Assembly: GCF_001019615.1 (NCBI RefSeq)
Contig: NZ_JNBQ01000034.1
Span: forward strand, 1 to 41,787
Source of the DNA: Cellulosimicrobium funkei
Lineage (GTDB): Bacteria; Actinomycetota; Actinomycetes; Actinomycetales; Cellulomonadaceae
Direction of reading: 5' to 3'
DNA length: 41,787 nucleotides
The translations under genes and the position numbers were made by a program. Below are positions 35,213 to 41,787 of this stretch, one piece after another. The first letter of the stretch is position 1. The number at the start of each line of letters is the position of its first letter. The notes under the pieces are model-generated. The model was not told where the DNA came from. It saw nothing but the letters and a program-made list of their open reading frames with translations, and made no database searches.

Positions 35213-35322
35213 AACCACGCGGGGCGTCCCGCCCGGGCAGCCGGGCCGAGGGACTGAGACGAGCGGTACGGCCGCCCGGACCCGTCGAACCTGATCTCGC
35301 TAGCACGAGCGGAGGAACGTGG
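35213..35322 (+). ncRNA. TPP (thi-box) riboswitch upstream of tenA
   Basis: The leader holds the thiamine pyrophosphate aptamer landmarks: GGACTGAGA (about 35251-35259) and GACCCGTCGAACCTGATCT (35279-35297). P1 is CCACG/CGTGG (35215-35219 with 35318-35322), P2 GTCCC/GGGAC (35226-35230 with 35250-35254), and P3 GCCCGG/CCGGGC inside. The aptamer 3' part GCGGAGGAAC contains the only Shine-Dalgarno for tenA (GGAGGA, 35311-35316), and P1 ends 2 nt before the ATG. TPP binding should therefore hide the ribosome site directly. Confidence 0.92.
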
Positions 35323-35324
35323 GC

Positions 35325-36077
35325 ATGACGACGCCTGCTGCCATCACCCTGAACCCTGTCCTCGCGGACGACCCGACCGCGCTCGTCCGGCAGGAGGAGA
35401 CCGGCTTCACCGCCGACCTCGCCCGCCGGTACGCGCACCTCTTCGACGAGTTCTACGACCACCCGTTCCTCGCCGGCCTGCGCGACGGCTCCGTCGAGCC
35501 GGCCGCGGTGCGGCACTACGTCGGCCAGGACCACCAGTACCTCACGGCGTACCTGCGCTGCTACGGCCTGGGCATGGCCCTCGCGCCCGACCGGGAGTGG
35601 GCCGCGTACTTCCACGAGAAGGCCGGGTTCCTGCTCGACGACGAGTCGCACGCCCACCACGCGATGTGCGACTTCCTCGGCGTGACGTACGAGGAGGCGC
35701 AGACGCACCGCCTCGCCCCGAGCGCGCAGGCCTACGTCGACCACATGCTCGCCGCGGGCCGCGACTCGCTCGGCGTGCTGCTCGCCGCGCTCCTGCCGTG
35801 CCCGTGGACCTACATCTGGTCGGCGCGGCGGTTCTGGCTCGCCGAGCGGGAGACGACGCCCGGTGCGATCGAGGACGACCACCCGCTCGCGGGCTGGTGG
35901 GAGTTCTACGCCGCCGAGCGCACCGAGGGCGTCCTGGCCGACCTCCGGGCACGCCTCGACGCGCTCGCCGCCGACGCGGGCGAGGCGGAGCGCGCCCGCA
36001 TGGAGCGTGCGTTCGAGCTGAGCTGCCGGCACGAGATCCGGTTCTGGCAGATGGCGTGGTCGCTCGAGCTCTGGTGA
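35325..36077 (+). CDS. tenA: TenA-family aminopyrimidine aminohydrolase (thiaminase II)
   Basis: A 250-residue all-helical TenA protein for thiamine salvage (aminopyrimidine deamination or thiamine cleavage). Catalytic Cys159 lies in LLPCPWTYIW, a C-terminal Glu237 in CRHEIRFWQMAW, and substrate-pocket residues in YVGQDHQYLTAY (Tyr/Asp) and FDEFYDHPFL. Full length for the family. ATG 35325 is chosen over the in-frame GTG two codons upstream, since the latter lies inside riboswitch stem P1 and is only 2 nt from the Shine-Dalgarno. The TPP riboswitch places it in the thiamine regulon. Confidence 0.95.
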   Translation: MTTPAAITLNPVLADDPTALVRQEETGFTADLARRYAHLFDEFYDHPFLAGLRDGSVEPAAVRHYVGQDHQYLTAYLRCYGLGMALAPDREWAAYFHEKAGFLLDDESHAHHAMCDFLGVTYEEAQTHRLAPSAQAYVDHMLAAGRDSLGVLLAALLPCPWTYIWSARRFWLAERETTPGAIEDDHPLAGWWEFYAAERTEGVLADLRARLDALAADAGEAERARMERAFELSCRHEIRFWQMAWSLELW

Positions 36078-36132
36078 CGCTCACCGGCGCTCGAGGCCCG
36101 ACGGCGGGCCGTTACGCCAGCAGCAGATCCTC

Positions 36133-36156
36133 GCCCGGGTGCCTCGGCACCCGGGC
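36133..36156 (+). terminator. Hairpin between tenA and the PopR/ClgR-like gene
   Basis: GCCCGGGTGCC / GGCACCCGGGC (36133-36143 and 36146-36156) form an 11-bp perfect inverted repeat that would fold as a 10-bp stem with a 4-nt loop. It begins 56 nt after tenA and lies just upstream of the next gene's -10, so it may be the tenA terminator. Confidence 0.65.
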
Positions 36157-36166
36157 GGGGCGCGGG

Positions 36167-36172
36167 TAGCGT
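36167..36172 (+). promoter_or_regulatory. -10 element of the leaderless PopR/ClgR-like gene
   Basis: TAGCGT lies exactly 6 nt before ATG 36179, with no Shine-Dalgarno. A leaderless mRNA is likely. Confidence 0.5.
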
Positions 36173-36178
36173 GACCGC

Positions 36179-36670
36179 ATGGACGTGACGAGCGCGGTGC
36201 CGAGCGGAGCGCCGAGCGGAGCGCCGGCGAGCCCCCGGCCCCGGGCGGGTGGGCGGCCGGAGCCGCTCCTGCGCCACGTCATCGGGGGGATCCTCCGGCG
36301 GGCACGGCTCGCGCAGGGTCGCACGCTCGTCGACGTCGCGGCCTCCGCGCGCGTCTCCACCGCCTACCTGTCCGAGGTGGAGCGCGGCCGCAAGGAGGCG
36401 TCCTCCGAGGTGCTGGCAGCGGTCTGCGGCGCGCTCGGCCTGCGCCTCGTGGACCTGGTGGCGCGTACGGGAGAGGAGCTGCGCCCCGTCGCCCCGGTGC
36501 GCGTGCTCTCCTCCGTCCGGGAGCGCGGCGCGCTCTCCGCGCCGCGGCACCCCGCCCCGGCGGGCGAGCCCGTGCGCGACCTCCCGGTCGCGCGGACCAC
36601 GATCGCGACCCCGACCCTCGCGTCGCGCCCGACCGCGCGCACCGCCGACGTCCTGCTCCTCGCGGCCTGA
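36179..36670 (+). CDS. PopR/ClgR-like XRE-family activator of clp genes
   Basis: A 163-residue DNA-binding protein. Residues 34-92 form a helix-turn-helix closely resembling ClgR and PopR: IGGILRRARLAQGRTL, then STAYLSEVERGRKEASSEVL, then AVCGALGLRLVDLV. These proteins activate clpP operons in actinobacteria. The chain ends LLLAA, like the C-terminal Ala-Ala tails by which PopR and ClgR are handed to Clp proteases. The N terminus is Ser/Gly/Ala/Pro-rich with a short SGAP repeat encoded by a 12-bp duplication. A clpP-clpP operon with two PopR-like boxes lies 1.1 kb downstream on the other strand. PopR versus ClgR cannot be decided from this window. Confidence 0.85.
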   Translation: MDVTSAVPSGAPSGAPASPRPRAGGRPEPLLRHVIGGILRRARLAQGRTLVDVAASARVSTAYLSEVERGRKEASSEVLAAVCGALGLRLVDLVARTGEELRPVAPVRVLSSVRERGALSAPRHPAPAGEPVRDLPVARTTIATPTLASRPTARTADVLLLAA

Positions 36671-36770
36671 GCCCCGCGGACCCGGGGGTCGAGACGCACC
36701 TGACGGGTACCTGGTCGGCACCGCGTGTCGTGCCCCGGTGCGGGGGGAGGCGCGCGGCTACCGTCGAGGG

Positions 36771-37718
36771 ATGACGGAGCCGCAGACCGCGCACGGCACG
36801 GCAGAGCAGACCGCCCCGGCCCTCCAGGAGCTCGTCGACGACGCCGCGTTCCTCTCGCACGAGCACCAGCTCCAGCTCGCCGACGACCACGGTGACGACG
36901 CGTGGGGCGCCGAGATGGCGGAGGGCACGTTCACCTTCACCGCCGCCTCCGGTGAGACGACGACGTGCCGGCTCCAGTTCCTCGGCACGGCCGCGCCCGG
37001 CCCCGGGAGCTGGATGTGGGCGTGGAACAACGTCAACGGCTTCTCCGACGACGTGCTGCGCGCCGCCGAGAAGACCCGCGAGACCGGCCTGCGCGAGGCG
37101 ACCGAGGCGGAGCTGCCGCTCGCCGACGACCTCCCGTACCGCCTCGCGCTCGCGGCCAAGGCCGTCACCGGGTCCTGGACCCACTACAGCGCCCCCGTCG
37201 GCGGCGGGACGCGCGCGTGGTTCCTCCTCGACGCCGCCAGCCTCGCGCTGCCCGCGCCGAGCGTCCCGCGCGTCGTGCGGGTGCTGAGCGAGGGACTGCT
37301 GTCCGTCACGGTCGTCGACCACCGCCGTGCGGTCGCGTCCTACGCGGCCGCGCGCGGCCTCGAGACGACGGAGGACGGCGGCGCGCTGGCGCTCACCCTG
37401 CCCGACGGGAGCGTGACCGTCCGGTTCGACGAGCACGGGCGGATCGCCGGCATCGAGGCGACCGCGCGGCGTGCGGCGGAGCCCGTGCACGAGCCCGACC
37501 CGGACGCGTCGGGACCTGACGCCGACCCCGCGAGGGTGGACGCCGTCGTCGACCCGGCTCCGGCCGTCGAGGAAGCTGCCCCGGACGAGCCGGGACCGGG
37601 CACTCCGCCACCGGAGGAGGCAAGGTCGCCGGGCGAGCAGCCCGACGAGCCGACGGCGACGACGGACGAGCGGGCGACGGAGCCACGGCGCCGATCGTGG
37701 TTCCGGCGGCGCGGGTAG
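36771..37718 (+). CDS. DUF6882-type protein of unknown function
   Basis: A 315-residue cytoplasmic protein. Residues about 15-190 match the DUF6882 pattern as I recall it: [19 protein letters not shown], then [11 protein letters not shown], and [18 protein letters not shown] second beta-rich segment (about 190-240) and a long acidic Pro/Glu/Asp tail ending in a basic [10 protein letters not shown] follow. No catalytic motif is recognised. ATG 36771 has no Shine-Dalgarno, and TACCGT (36759-36764) lies exactly 6 nt upstream. It is convergent with the clpP operon, and there is no evidence that it belongs to the Clp circuit. Confidence 0.8.
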
Positions 37719-37746
37719 ACCCGAACGCACGGCGGCACGCGGCGAG

Positions 37747-37787
37747 CGATGCGTCTGCGGCCGAGAGCTGCGTCTCGGGACGCATCG
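37747..37787. terminator. Nested hairpin between convergent DUF6882 and clpP genes
   Basis: Outer arms CGATGCGTC (37747-37755) and GACGCATCG (37779-37787) enclose inner arms CCGAGA (37761-37766) and TCTCGG (37773-37778). It lies in the 100-bp gap between two convergent stops and could end transcription from both sides. Confidence 0.6.
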
Positions 37788-37818
37788 GTCGACCGCGGAC
37801 GCAGCGCTCGACCGCCGG

Positions 37819-38427
37819 TCAGGCGGCGGCGGCGGCGAGCTTGCGCGAGGTGACGACGGCGTCCGCGACGCCGTACTCGACGGCCTGGCGCGCCGTGAGC
37901 ACGAGGTCGCGGTCGGTGTCCGCGCGCAGGCGCTCGACGGTCTGACCCGTGTGGCGGGACAGCACCTCCTCCGTCTCGGACCGGATCCGCAGGATCTCCT
38001 CGGCCTGGATCGACAGGTCGGAGATGGTGCCCTCGCCGCCGCCCGAGGGCTGGTGCAGCAGCACGCGCGAGTGCTCGAGCACGAACCGCTTGCCCGGCGT
38101 CCCCGCCGCGAGCAGCACGGCCGCGGCCGACGCCGCCTGGCCCATGCAGATGGTCGACACGTCGCAGCGGACGAACTGCATCGTGTCGTAGATCGCCATG
38201 AGCGCGGTCGCGGAGCCGCCGGGGGAGTTGATGTACAGGCCGATCTCCTGGTCCGGAGCGTCGGACTCCAGGTGGAGGAGCTGCGCCATGACGACGTTCG
38301 CGACGCCGTCGTCGATCTCCGTGCCGAGGAAGACGATGCGCTCCGACAGGAGGCGGGAGAAGACGTCGAACGCGCGCTCCCCGAGCGGGGTCCTCTCGAC
38401 GACGGTCGGGATCGTGTAGCTCGCCAT
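37819..38427 (-). CDS. clpP: ATP-dependent Clp protease proteolytic subunit, second of pair
   Basis: A 202-residue serine protease subunit. The catalytic triad is Ser100 (MGQAASAAA), His125 (LLHQPSGG) and Asp174 (TDRDLVLTA). GLYINSPGG and FLGTEIDD are conserved. It forms the proteolytic barrel with a partner ClpP and a ClpX/ClpC unfoldase encoded elsewhere. The [20 protein letters not shown] form resembles the ClpP2-type partner. ATG overlaps the stop of the first clpP by one base (TGATG), so the two subunits are co-translated. The C terminus is a run of alanines. No tig or clpX lies beside the pair, which suggests a secondary pair like Streptomyces clpP3-clpP4. Confidence 0.95.
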
Positions 38428-39065
38428 CACAGGCCCACCTTCCGGGCCGCGCGGGCGGGACGGACGTCGTCGACGGACTCGACGATCCGGTCGACCATGC
38501 CGTACTCGAGCGCCTGCTGCGCCGTGAACCAGCGGTCCCGGTCGGAGTCGTCGGCGATGGTCTCGACGCTCTGGCCGGTGCTCTCGGCGGTCAGCCGGTG
38601 CATGAGGCCCTTGGTGTAGACGAGGTTCTCGGCCTGGATCGCGATGTCGACGGCGGTGCCGCCGATCCCCGCCGAGGGCTGGTGCATCATGATCCGCGCG
38701 TGCGGCAGCGCGAACCGCTTGCCCGGCGTCCCCGCGCACAGCAGGAACTGCCCCATGCTCGCGGCGAAGCCCATCGCGACCGTCGAGACGTCGTTGGGGA
38801 TGAGCCGCATCGTGTCGTAGATGGCCAGCCCGGCGCTCACCGAGCCGCCGGGGGAGTTCACGTAGAGCGCGACGTCCGCGCGCGGGTCCTCGGCCGAGAG
38901 CAGGAGGAGCTGCGCGCACAGACGGTTCGCGACGGCGTCGTCCACGGCCGAGCCGAGGACGACGATGCGCTGGTGGAGCAGGCGCGTCGTGAGCTGGTCG
39001 TCGAAGGACGACGCCGCCGGGGCGACGGCCTCCGCGTGCGGTGGGCGTGACGTGTGCGTGGTCAT
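38427..39065 (-). CDS. clpP: ATP-dependent Clp protease proteolytic subunit, first of pair
   Basis: A 212-residue ClpP. The catalytic triad is Ser103 (GFAASMGQF), His128 (MMHQPSAG) and Asp177 (DRDRWFTA). [15 protein letters not shown] and YTKGLMHRL are also conserved. A ~25-residue variable N-terminal extension precedes the core. ATG 39065 is chosen because the family core starts soon after; a longer in-frame start at 39122 would lie inside the regulatory boxes. It is the first gene of the two-gene operon, with two PopR-like boxes about 42-72 bp upstream. It probably forms a mixed tetradecamer with the second ClpP. Confidence 0.95.
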
Positions 39066-39106
39066 GGCACCACCGTGGCCCGGGCGAGGCACGGACGGGC
39101 GAGGAA

Positions 39107-39136
39107 TCTGCCGTCGGCTCATTCGCCGACGGCAGA
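39107..39136. promoter_or_regulatory. Two abutting 15-bp PopR/ClgR-like activator boxes ahead of the clpP operon
   Basis: TCTGCC-GTC-GGCTCA (39107-39121) and TTCGCC-GAC-GGCAGA (39122-39136) are two directly adjacent boxes. Each has one perfect and one 4-of-6 half-site of TCTGCC-N3-GGCAGA, which I recall as the PopR-binding palindrome of Streptomyces. Together they form a 13-bp-arm inverted repeat (39106-39118 with 39125-39137, 6-nt spacer). The same hairpin could also serve as terminator of the FN3 gene, whose stop is 28 bp away. Confidence 0.7.
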
Positions 39137-39164
39137 TCCCCCGCCCGCCGTCACCCGCCGAGGA

Positions 39165-41787
39165 TCAGCGAGGTTCCCAGGTGCGCCGTTCCACCACGAG
39201 GTTGGCCGGCGCGGGACTGACGGTGATCCAGTTCTGCGGCGAGGGGTAGTAGTTGCCCATGATGCACGGGAGGTCGAACGAGGCGTTCGGACCGATAGCC
39301 CGCGAGTAGCCGCCCGTGATGGCGTGGTCGTACCCGCCCGCGTTCGTCATGCACTGCACCGTGTAGGTGCCGCTCGGGAACGTCGCGTTCGTGTTGAGGC
39401 GGTACCGCGTGCAGACCGAGGTGTTGCAGTCACCCAGGGAGCCGGTGTTCGCCTGGGCGCCGCGCGTCGCCCAGATCCGGGGCGGGTCGGGCCGGGGGTC
39501 GGTGGTGAACGTGGCCTGATTGCTCCACGCCCCGCACCCGGCCGCGTTGCACGCCCGCGCGATCAGCCGGAACGTCTGCTCGTAGTCGGAGCCGACGTTG
39601 ACCGTCTGCCCCGTGCCGGACGTGTTCTGGCTGCCGGAGAGCTGCCACTCGTAGCGCGAGATCCCGTTGCCGCCGTTCGACGAGGGCGCCGAGATCGAGA
39701 ACTGGCCACGGTTCACGCCCGTCCGGGACACCGAGACGCCCGGGGTCCCCGGCTTGTCGTAGGCGTTGATCGACGCCGACGCGGGGCTCGACGTCGACGT
39801 ACCGCCGAGGTTGGTCGCGGTCACGGTGAACGTGTACGAGCCGGGGTTGAGGCCCGTGAAGTCCACCGACGTCCCGGACACCTGCCTGGTCGTCCCGCCC
39901 GGCGAGGCCGTCACGGTGTAGGCGGTGATCGGGCTGCCGTTGGCGTCGGCGGCGCCCCACGACACGCGCGGGATGCCGCTGTCCTGGGACGACGACCCGA
40001 CGTTCTGCACGCTCGGCCGGGGCGGGGCCTCCGGACGGCCGTAGGGCACGACCGCCGCGGACGCCGAGCTCTGCGCGGTCACGCCCGCCTTGTTCTCGGC
40101 GGTCACGGTGAACGTGTAGGACGACTCGTTGTCGAGCCCGGTCGCCTTGTGGCTGAGCCCCGTGAGGGTCAGCGCCGCCCCGTCGGGCGAGCCGTTGCGG
40201 TACCGCTGGAGGTGGTACGCCTTGATGGCGTCACCGTTCTCGAACGGCTGCTCCCACGACACGTCGATCGACCCGCCGTTGAGCGGCGAGTCCGCGGCGC
40301 GGCTCGCGCTCGGCGTCTTCGGGACGTCCGGCAGCCCGGCGGGGATCTCCTCGGCGGAGTAGTCGCCCCACTCGGACGGGTCGGGCGCGAGGTTCACGGC
40401 CTGGACGCGGACGCGGTAGGCCGTGCCGTTCTCGAGCCCCGTCCACACGACCTGGTTGCCGGAGAGCGCCTGCATCTGGATCGCCCCGCTCGGCGGCGCC
40501 GGGGAGATCTCGAGATTGACGGTCTCGATGGGCGACCGGTCGGTGTAGGTCTTGTTGGTCCAGGTGACGGTGAGCGACTTGTCGCCGAACTCGAGGGTGG
40601 GTGCGGCGGGCGGGTCGGGCTTCTCGTCGGGGCGCGCCTCGGCCGAGGGCGGGGAGGCGGGGCCGTCGCCGACAGCGTTGGTCGCGAAGACGGTGAAGGT
40701 GTACTTCACGTTGTTGGTGAGGCCGTCGAGGGTGCAGGTGGTGGTGCCGCAGGCCTTCTCGTAGCCGTTCTGGGAGCGCACGGTGTAGCCGGTGATCTCG
40801 GCGCCGTTGTTGTTCGGCGGGTCCCAGGACAGCACGACGGTCTTGGAGCGGACCTCGTCGACCTGCGGGGTGGCTGGTGCCTCGGGCTTGCCGAGCACCT
40901 TGAGCTGGACGCGCCCCTCCACGAGGCGGTCCTGGTCCTTGGTGGCGTCCTGCACGCGGTAGACCACGACCATCACGCCGACGAAGTTCTCGTCCGGGGT
41001 CACGGTCACGCTGTCACCCGTGAAGGCGACGTCTCCCGAGCCGGTCTCGACCACCGCGCCCGTCACGACGAGCGGGGTGTCGGGGAAGGGGTTGGAGTCG
41101 TTGGCGAGCACGGGGACCGAGGTCGGCTTGCCCTGGTGGGCGTCGTCGACGGTGTCCTGGTTGGCGCGCGCGAGGGGTCGGGTGGAGGCCACGACGGTCA
41201 GGGTCGCGGTGCCCTCGACCGGGGGGTGCTCGCCGTCGGTGACGGTGATCGGGACCTGGACGACCGAGCCCTTGGGGACCTCGGGGGTGGCCTGGGCGTG
41301 CAGGGTGGTGCCCTCGACGGTGACGGTCAGGCCCTGGGCCTGGCCGGTGGCCTTGAAGGTCAGGGGGTCGCCGTCCGGGTCGGTGGCGAAGCGCGCGAGG
41401 TCGATCGACGCCTCCTCGCCCGCCGCGACGTCGAGCGTCGGGGTGGAGAGCTCCGGCGGCAGGTTCTCCGGTGGGATCACGCTGATCGGCAGCGTGAGCA
41501 GCGCCGTGTGCCCGTCGGGGTCGTCGGGGCCGGAGCCGTCGGTCACCTCGAACGTGACGGCGGCGGGACCGACGTAGTCGGCGTTCGAGGTGTAGACGAT
41601 CTCGGTGGTCGAGGGCACCTCACGGGTCCCCTCGAGCGCGGTGACCTTGTCCTCGGTCGTCAGGCGCGGGGTCTTGCCCTCGACGACGAGCACGTAGTCG
41701 GTGATGTCGATCGGCAGCGGCTCACCGCTGACGACCTCCAACGGGGTGATGCCCGGACGCAGGGTCGGGGCCTGGTCCGTCATCCCC
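39165..41787 (-). CDS. Large Ig-like/fibronectin type III surface protein (partial, 5' end off window)
   Basis: The frame is open to the right edge, so the N terminus is missing; the Met at 41783 is probably internal. The visible ~873 residues hold about three cadherin/Ig-like repeats (to ~300; VTFEVTDGSGPDDPDGHT, FATDPDGDPLTFKA, VPVLANDSNPFPDTPLVV). Five FN3 domains follow at roughly 305-775, with TYTFTVTA-type strands. A ~95-residue Cys-containing terminal domain (CNTSVCTRYRLN ... CIMGNYYPSPQNW) ends the protein. No C-terminal anchor or LPxTG motif is seen. In cellulolytic actinobacteria such proteins typically precede MoxR/DUF58/transglutaminase genes, which would lie outside the window. 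The role is probably adhesive or envelope-associated. Confidence 0.9.
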   Translation of the reverse strand, partial: GMTDQAPTLRPGITPLEVVSGEPLPIDITDYVLVVEGKTPRLTTEDKVTALEGTREVPSTTEIVYTSNADYVGPAAVTFEVTDGSGPDDPDGHTALLTLPISVIPPENLPPELSTPTLDVAAGEEASIDLARFATDPDGDPLTFKATGQAQGLTVTVEGTTLHAQATPEVPKGSVVQVPITVTDGEHPPVEGTATLTVVASTRPLARANQDTVDDAHQGKPTSVPVLANDSNPFPDTPLVVTGAVVETGSGDVAFTGDSVTVTPDENFVGVMVVVYRVQDATKDQDRLVEGRVQLKVLGKPEAPATPQVDEVRSKTVVLSWDPPNNNGAEITGYTVRSQNGYEKACGTTTCTLDGLTNNVKYTFTVFATNAVGDGPASPPSAEARPDEKPDPPAAPTLEFGDKSLTVTWTNKTYTDRSPIETVNLEISPAPPSGAIQMQALSGNQVVWTGLENGTAYRVRVQAVNLAPDPSEWGDYSAEEIPAGLPDVPKTPSASRAADSPLNGGSIDVSWEQPFENGDAIKAYHLQRYRNGSPDGAALTLTGLSHKATGLDNESSYTFTVTAENKAGVTAQSSASAAVVPYGRPEAPPRPSVQNVGSSSQDSGIPRVSWGAADANGSPITAYTVTASPGGTTRQVSGTSVDFTGLNPGSYTFTVTATNLGGTSTSSPASASINAYDKPGTPGVSVSRTGVNRGQFSISAPSSNGGNGISRYEWQLSGSQNTSGTGQTVNVGSDYEQTFRLIARACNAAGCGAWSNQATFTTDPRPDPPRIWATRGAQANTGSLGDCNTSVCTRYRLNTNATFPSGTYTVQCMTNAGGYDHAITGGYSRAIGPNASFDLPCIMGNYYPSPQNWITVSPAPANLVVERRTWEPR

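Follow-up and report, generated by a model that had tools for sequence, protein, structure and literature searches.

A predicted PopR/clpP3-clpP4 rescue locus in Cellulosimicrobium funkei

PopR and ClgR as activators of clpP genes

The PopR/clpP3-clpP4 system was reportedly described in Streptomyces lividans by Viala and colleagues in 2000 and 2002. According to passages of two articles, Streptomyces PopR carries two C-terminal alanines and is degraded in vitro by ClpX with ClpP1 and ClpP2, ClpP3 is expressed once ClpP1P2 is out, and the PopR operator, as reviewed there, reads TCTGCC-3N-GGCGAATCTGCC-3N-GGCAGA (PMC9765437, PMC9775585). The recognition motif of ClgR is given as GTTCGC-5N-GCG in a review. 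PopR outside Streptomyces has no description in the literature searched, the coverage of which mostly excludes subscription papers, and the best 20 of 2393 matches for PopR together with GGCAGA are all unrelated papers. Since ClpP serves as a drug target, the response of such bacteria depends in part on whether a spare enzyme appears once the main one has been hit.

The locus presented here lies in a stretch of 41,787 nt from C. funkei (contig NZ_JNBQ01000034.1 of GCF_001019615.1), called the window below, and is very probably the PopR/clpP3-clpP4 rescue circuit of Streptomyces in Cellulosimicrobium. The circuit itself is already known from Streptomyces, and the host is new. New at the sequence level are the spacing of a -10-like element, a predicted leaderless start, and the position of the operator inside a covarying stem-loop. 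Shared with the Streptomyces system are a ClgR-paralogue activator with C-terminal Ala-Ala, a tandem operator, a main clpP pair located elsewhere and a -10-like element at the same distance, and popR lies near and faces the spare clpP pair, as it does in most of the listed Streptomyces loci of a clpP-blind operator scan. With ClgR and clpP1-clpP2 of Actinobacteria the locus shares a related HTH activator of clpP, which in that system is itself a Clp substrate according to the articles consulted.

Genes of the locus and the two ClpP pairs

The activator is a PopR-like HTH protein of 163 aa (36179–36670, + strand) and is followed by a gene for a DUF6882 protein (36771–37718, +; DUF6882 at 102.6 bits). 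The spare clpP genes are on the opposite strand, ClpP3-like first (38427–39065, -) and ClpP4-like second (37819–38427, -), with the stop codon of the first overlapping the ATG of the second by one base. Before them, on the same strand, is a gene for an FN3/Big_9-domain protein (39165–41783, -), the start of which is near the window edge or possibly further out. Its stop codon is 28 nt before the operator in the window. The activator, the DUF6882 gene, the clpP pair and the boxes are all located where the initial annotation had placed them.

In total the genome has four clpP genes, the spare pair and a main pair at C8:6270-7560, compared to five in two of the three Streptomyces genomes examined. 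The main pair is placed between a trigger-factor frame and ClpX; the former gives 142 bits over its second half, short of the 180 required for the whole protein, the latter 453 bits, above cut-off. The spare operon is therefore not the only clpP operon of the genome, and the search for a second pair next to tig/clpX, proposed with the initial annotation, has a positive outcome. In a tree of 34 ClpPs, in which the Streptomyces spare genes were identified via operator and popR and not by locus name, the first spare clpP joins spare genes of Streptomyces, Nocardioides and Cellulomonas (100/99), and the second joins the corresponding spare genes (94/90, below the starred level). Judged by this grouping, both spare ClpPs are orthologous to Streptomyces ClpP3 and ClpP4. 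Both subunits have the catalytic Ser, His and Asp; in the second subunit this differs from the two Streptomyces looked at, where Gly takes the place of the His. Too narrow a motif suggested that the spare ClpPs of Micromonospora and Frankia had lost their catalytic serine, which is rejected, as the alignment shows the serine within GSMG.

The activator has an HTH_3 domain (39.3 bits), and its best NCBIfam match is ClgR (NF041677), where it scores 93.6 bits and the cut-off is 170, which makes it a relative and not a ClgR equivalog. Its C-terminus reads TADVLLLAA, in agreement with the initial description of a ClgR/PopR-like activator ending in LLLAA, and the tail is a predicted ClpX-type degron; the tmRNA tag of the same genome ends in ALAA. 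The PopR tail is AA in 93 of 98 family loci (a count in which some genomes occur twice and hits of 60 bits or less are omitted) and, once Micromonospora and Frankia are set aside, AA or VA in all 66 named loci; only 10 of the 27 Micromonospora popR-like proteins end in AA or VA. A paralogue at C59, taken as the true ClgR, is 57% identical to the window activator over the HTH and ends in LQPVG.

Unlike in Streptomyces, the DUF6882 gene separates popR from clpP at this locus. The initial annotation listed this as a difference, and the arrangement is that of 10 Cellulosimicrobium genomes which have the spare pair and of seven Oerskovia-group (g15) genomes. DUF6882 adjoins popR in 12 of the 17 genus genomes and in seven Oerskovia-group genomes. 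Two genomes that lack the pair (G120, G124) likewise have it behind popR; DUF6882 thus seems to go with popR. Three of the 17 genus genomes (G120, G122, G124) have popR with a LAA-type tail and neither spare clpP nor operator, and PopR may therefore have another job there.

Tandem operator and predicted promoter

A pattern scan predicts a tandem PopR operator of two abutting 15-bp boxes at 39107–39136 (-), which is -42 to -71 relative to the first clpP ATG when counted from its A, and the initial claim of two such boxes before this ATG can be read directly from the DNA. In the clpP sense the boxes are TCTGCC-GTC-GGCGAA and then TGAGCC-GAC-GGCAGA, and if extended by a single base at either end they make up an inverted repeat of 32 bp (39106–39137) that is perfect, with 13-bp arms and a 6-base centre. 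The operator shares 22 of the 24 fixed bases with that of Streptomyces. Tandem boxes with one degraded half-site each had been proposed as a mark setting this locus apart from Streptomyces, which is ruled out by the operator given in the review and by the blind scan, both of which have the same form.

A single box with up to three mismatches occurs at 2098 places in the genome, compared to 6347 for a reversed-pattern control, i.e. without enrichment; such matches are so common that a lone box proves nothing, and the single-box scan was dropped as evidence for its high background. The tandem 30-mer is different: in the 4.66-Mb genome it has no mismatch at the window, and the sole other place within three mismatches has three, against 17 places within three mismatches for its reversed-pattern control. 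The genome scan for boxes suggested earlier therefore yields a single tandem site. Scans for the tandem pattern covered the own genome and 17 genus genomes, and the operator is present in exactly the 13 of these 17 that have four clpP genes and absent in the four that have two.

In the taxonomic family, 104 loci were picked by the ClpP protein and not by the box (the window, the 102 best-ranked others and the lower-ranked G205; G014, G207, G083 and weaker ones were excluded). In 96 of them the upstream region holds a tandem site that agrees with the consensus at 20 or more of its 24 bases, and the best score among shuffled upstreams (n = 2080) is 19 of 24. Six of the eight loci without a good tandem site carry one perfect box. 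The clpP-blind scan of GTDB genomes gave at least 119 sites; of those listed, 108 of 119 immediately precede a clpP, and for 94 of the 108 the stretch also includes a popR-like gene. The two sets share some genomes and are not independent.

Past the operator, 88 of the 96 family loci have A31 and T35, as do 97 of the 108 listed blind-scan loci, the next-best offset reaching 13 and 9, respectively. This -10-like nAnnnT pattern, with its constant spacing to the boxes, is a new detail, seen here as a sequence regularity; in the window it is CACGGT (39072–39077, -), 29 bp past the operator, and the spacing gives an exact, testable promoter model. From the distance to this element the transcription start is predicted at 39065 (-), the A of the clpP ATG, so that the clpP3 message of the window would be leaderless, as is probably the case for clpP3-clpP4 in the genus, whereas Streptomyces has a leader with an AGGAG-like site. 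A scan with the sigma-70 consensus found no promoter, which is unsurprising for a GC-rich, activator-dependent promoter. Among the matches listed, the operator stands before clpP also in Micromonospora, Cellulomonas, Oerskovia, Cellulosimicrobium, Nocardioides, Frankia and others, and its occurrence across many genera, mostly with one distance to the -10-like element, suggests that PopR and the spare clpP genes are an old actinobacterial rescue system.

Proposed circuit and competing explanations

By analogy with Streptomyces, working main ClpP1P2 (with ClpX) would destroy PopR via the C-terminal Leu-Ala-Ala, and the spare pair would be silent. Upon loss of main ClpP activity PopR would build up, two PopR dimers (a number we infer) would bind the abutting 15-bp boxes, and RNA polymerase would be recruited to a promoter with the -10-like element and without a recognisable -35. 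The outcome would be a clpP3-clpP4 message, probably starting at the ATG in this genus, and the same palindrome may also serve as a 3' hairpin. The rescue circuit claimed by the initial annotation is supported at the sequence level, where the second clpP pair by tig/clpX, the single operator, the grouping of the ClpPs, the conserved LAA tail and the conserved operator-to--10 spacing point to it; PopR binding, degradation, silence and induction at this locus are carried over from Streptomyces as expectations.

The tail effect is known from Streptomyces only, and control could lie at popR transcription with the LAA tail not being a working degron, but this is highly unlikely given that the final residues are conserved in relatives while the preceding ones vary, and that the paralogous ClgR ends differently. 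Hardly more probable is a spare pair run by ClgR or expressed constitutively, with no rescue switch. The genome does have the ClgR paralogue, which could also act on the operator; the ClgR motif given in the review differs, however, from the boxes, and popR and the tandem operator remain together across genera.

The palindrome itself might be no activator site at all and serve the FN3 gene before it only as a terminator or 3' hairpin. The operator does lie within a strong, GC-rich stem-loop with G-U pairs (39098–39145, -; 21-bp stem, -47 kcal/mol, z -9.06), a candidate terminator or insulator of the upstream gene; this longer stem-loop around the operator is a difference from Streptomyces. Covarying flanks lengthen the stem in 11 of the 13 operator-bearing genus loci, and in 10 of these 11 the operator is 15–28 nt past the FN3 stop. 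The box spacers of the listed blind-scan sites also pair slightly above expectation (1.53 of 3 vs 1.15). Nevertheless, the 85 family loci from other genera keep the half-sites while their spacers pair at 1.19 of 3 vs 1.24 expected and their flanks barely lengthen the stem. A T-rich stretch follows the operator in one of 96 family loci and in none of 109 listed blind-scan rows, and no U-tract after the stem and no terminator-like site is present in 36080–39300. Together with the position of the blind hits before clpP and their fixed distance to the -10-like element, this makes an exclusive terminator very improbable, and spacer pairing and the missing U-tract rule against it as the sole explanation.

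A tentative addition to the rescue circuit, which complements and does not replace it, is that operator and terminator coincide in one 48-bp element in most Cellulosimicrobium, so that the palindrome, merged with the 3' hairpin of the upstream surface-type protein gene, would at once switch the silent rescue operon and shield it from read-through, with the rescue message leaderless; this full combination is, if anything, slightly more doubtful. Allowing G-U pairs and small shifts, the flanks extend the stem by 6.2 pairs on average in the 11 genus loci, which have 10 distinct flank pairs, compared to 1.6 in the 85 loci of other genera. Flank cells altered on both sides number 12 vs 5.7 in shuffles (none of 500 as high), and a permutation test gave 0 of 20000, relatedness not being corrected. 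With strict Watson-Crick pairs and no shifts, however, the mean is only 3.9 (1 in the window, 0 in L032 and L036) vs 2.2 with flanks swapped between genomes, and pairs changed on both sides (4 vs 3.4) and pair types (9 vs 7.5) are not unusual. The stem is not extended in G110 and G125, which have the operator and more diverged pairs, the absence of the U-tract counts here as well, and replication can perfect imperfect palindromes without selection. No Rfam family reaches the gathering score in 36000–41787. The operator hairpin may end the message of the neighbouring FN3 gene, and the silent clpP3 promoter would then be insulated from read-through.

Gene content and relationships of the spare clpP pair

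The forward strand of the window carries a popR-like gene for an HTH protein of 163 aa ending in LLLAA (36179-36670) and a gene for a DUF6882 protein (36771-37718). The reverse strand carries two ClpP subunit genes, the first of the pair at 38427-39065 and the second at 37819-38427, stop and start overlapping by one base. Genes and boxes lie where the initial annotation had described them. A TenA-like gene (thiaminase II; 35319-36077, forward strand), directly upstream of popR, scores 129 bits, just under the cut-off of 130.

The window pair had been proposed to be a spare one, and a second clpP pair beside tig and clpX is indeed present, so that the window does not hold the sole clpP operon. 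Four clpP genes are present in the genome (4.66 Mb, 85 contigs, 99.99% complete), two in the window and two on contig C8 (6270-7560). The C8 pair is flanked by ClpX (453 bits, above its cut-off) and by a trigger-factor frame whose match covers the model's second half (142 bits; the whole-protein cut-off is 180). A ClgR paralogue is located on contig C59.

A 34-protein ClpP tree joins the window first subunit to the spare subunits encoded behind the operator in Streptomyces, Nocardioides and Cellulomonas (100/99), and the second to the partners of those subunits (94/90, below the starred level). The Streptomyces spare pair in the tree is presumably clpP3-clpP4, judging from operator, popR and literature rather than locus names. 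Both window subunits retain in the alignment the S, H and D which we take, from ClpP in general, to be catalytic. The second spare subunit of two Streptomyces loci (L122 and L181) has Gly at the catalytic His (LLGQP), whereas the window second subunit has His (LLHQP). The locus is well supported, on sequence comparison, as the known PopR/clpP3-clpP4 circuit in a new host, to which it would add two testable features, a leaderless start and an operator inside a covarying stem-loop.

Cellulosimicrobium cellulans NBRC 15516 (L196) has a 97% identical ClpP. A 94% identical one occurs in L090 (QAPD01000015.1); the organism name on that record, Sphaerisporangium cinnabarinum ATCC 31213, looks wrong. 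In the tree, the Frankia sp. QA3 spare pair behind the tandem operator (L155, L306, L315) is closer to the main pair of Frankia itself than to the spare pairs of other genera, which would fit a duplicate that had been placed under the same operator.

The tandem operator and the predicted promoter behind it

The operator (39107-39136, reverse strand; clpP sense TCTGCCGTCGGCGAA|TGAGCCGACGGCAGA) consists of two abutting 15-bp boxes at -71 to -42 from the ATG, and with one extra base per side it forms a perfect 32-bp inverted repeat. A review gives TCTGCC-3N-GGCGAATCTGCC-3N-GGCAGA as the PopR target in Streptomyces (PMC9775585), and the window operator departs from it at 2 of the 24 fixed bases. 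Abutting boxes and a degraded inner half-site, GGCGAA here, are therefore the known form, and cannot be said, as initially suggested, to set this locus apart from Streptomyces. In clpP sense, the palindrome's six central bases, GAATGA in the window (39119-39124), are inverted to TCATTC in another Cellulosimicrobium locus (L033, G117), as would result if the centre had flipped between its arms.

A single 15-mer is no evidence alone, because it occurs with up to 3 mismatches at 2098 places in the genome and its reversed control at even more. The 30-mer has one mismatch-free site, in the window, and just one further match at up to 3 mismatches, which carries all 3. A clpP-blind scan of GTDB species genomes with TCTGCCNNNGGCNNATNNGCNNNNGGCAGA gave at least 119 stretches. 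Among the 119 sites listed, 108 lie directly upstream of clpP, 94 of these accompanied by a popR-like gene within the stretch. Four of the 11 listed sites without clpP (L142, L147, L154, L202; Streptomyces or Cellulomonas) fall within about 200 bp of one end of the fetched stretch; the other seven are in non-actinobacterial records, two (L118, L152) also near a stretch end. Reciprocally, among 104 family loci including the window, chosen by ClpP similarity, the upstream regions matched 20 or more of the 24 consensus bases in 96 and 17 to 19 in 8; the best of 2080 shuffled upstreams reached 19. Six of the 8 low-scoring loci have one perfect box, TCTGCC-N3-GGCAGA (L231, L232, L239, L242, L248, L250). 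Within Cellulosimicrobium, the operator occurs in 13/13 genomes with four clpP genes and in 0/4 with two, two of these four being incomplete (83% and 75%).

Downstream, a -10-like nAnnnT element spans positions 30-35 counted from the operator's last base; its A31 and T35 occur together in 88/96 family loci and 97/108 listed blind-scan loci, the next-best offset giving 13 and 9, respectively. By eye, the majority of misses (8 and 11) show a one-base shift. In five of the six single-box loci the A and T keep, from the one box, the spacing that separates them elsewhere from the proximal box; in L242 they lie one base further. C at 9-10 and G at 26 are conserved less strongly. A -35 consensus was not seen, and the activator probably replaces this element. 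In the window the -10-like element is CACGGT (39077-39072, reverse strand) and the ATG starts six bases beyond it, at 42; exactly this ATG position is seen in 44/96 family loci. Such spacing suggests that clpP3 mRNA is leaderless in Cellulosimicrobium, whereas in Streptomyces loci the ATG is, by eye, preceded by a leader carrying an AGGAG-like site. A weak ribosome site, GGTGG, ahead of the window ATG may be used instead of a leaderless start.

In the Micromonospora loci (L087, L091, L100 and 26 more among L085-L203) the popR-like gene lies near the site in a different arrangement, and whole-genome search of Micromonospora G224 and G225 found three clpP genes, one behind a tandem operator.

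The stem-loop around the operator

The window operator is part of a longer, 21-bp stem that includes some G-U pairs (-47 kcal/mol against -20.4 in shuffles; z -9.06). Among 11 Cellulosimicrobium loci (window and L027-L036; 10 distinct rows), bases outside the operator vary yet tend to keep their complementarity. The third pair outward is C-G, T-A or G-C and the fourth G-C, C-G or A-T, with one unpaired locus at each. Both-side changes occur in twelve cells (10 distinct rows) vs 5.7 in shuffles (0/500 as high), and the flank covariation score is 0.159 vs 0.076 shuffled (0/500), slid structures coming nowhere near. Pairs with both-side change (4 vs 3.4) and further pair types (9 vs 7.5) are not unusual against expectation. 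With G-U and small shifts allowed, the stem extends by 6.2 pairs on average vs 1.6 in 85 other-genus loci, and 0/20000 permutations attain the observed sum, relatedness being uncorrected. Strict Watson-Crick extension is 3.9 vs 0.8 in other genera (window 1; L032 and L036 0) and 2.2 with flanks swapped within Cellulosimicrobium.

The FN3 gene upstream (39165-41783, reverse strand, in the window) has its stop codon 15-28 nt before the site in 10 of the 11 loci, no FN3 gene being found in L036. Tentatively, in most Cellulosimicrobium the operator might also terminate the upstream message and shield the silent clpP3 operon from read-through, a role we consider rather doubtful; the terminator scan of the window found no U-tract after the stem, and stem extension is absent from the remaining operator-bearing Cellulosimicrobium loci (G110, G125), whose clpP pairs are more diverged. 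The extended palindrome may instead be of mutational origin, perfected during replication.

The PopR tail and the DUF6882 neighbour

In Streptomyces, PopR is reported to be degraded by ClpX with ClpP1 and ClpP2, ClpP3 appearing once these fail (PMC9765437; PMC12607617), with two C-terminal alanines as the likely recognition site (PMC9775585). Leaving aside Micromonospora and Frankia, PopR ends in AA (59) or VA (7) in 66/66 named loci. The popR-like protein does so in 10/27 Micromonospora and 0/1 Frankia, where several of the regulators are positioned differently and are perhaps another protein. In the family set, 93/98 loci end in AA, 79 of them in LAA, some genomes being counted twice. The tmRNA tag in this genome is ADNKRTDFALAA.

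DUF6882 occurs in 27/220 family genomes. By coordinates it adjoins popR in 12/12 Cellulosimicrobium and 7/7 Oerskovia-group (g15) genomes having the domain, and it is far from popR in G037, one of 8 other domain-bearing family genomes. The spare clpP pair is absent from two of the 12 Cellulosimicrobium genomes (G120, G124), and DUF6882 seems to go with popR, not with clpP. Orphan PopRs, 84-87% identical over the HTH, occur in three Cellulosimicrobium genomes with two clpP genes only and no tandem operator, their tails being SLAAA (L206, G124), VVLAA (L207, G122) and RALAA (L208, G120).
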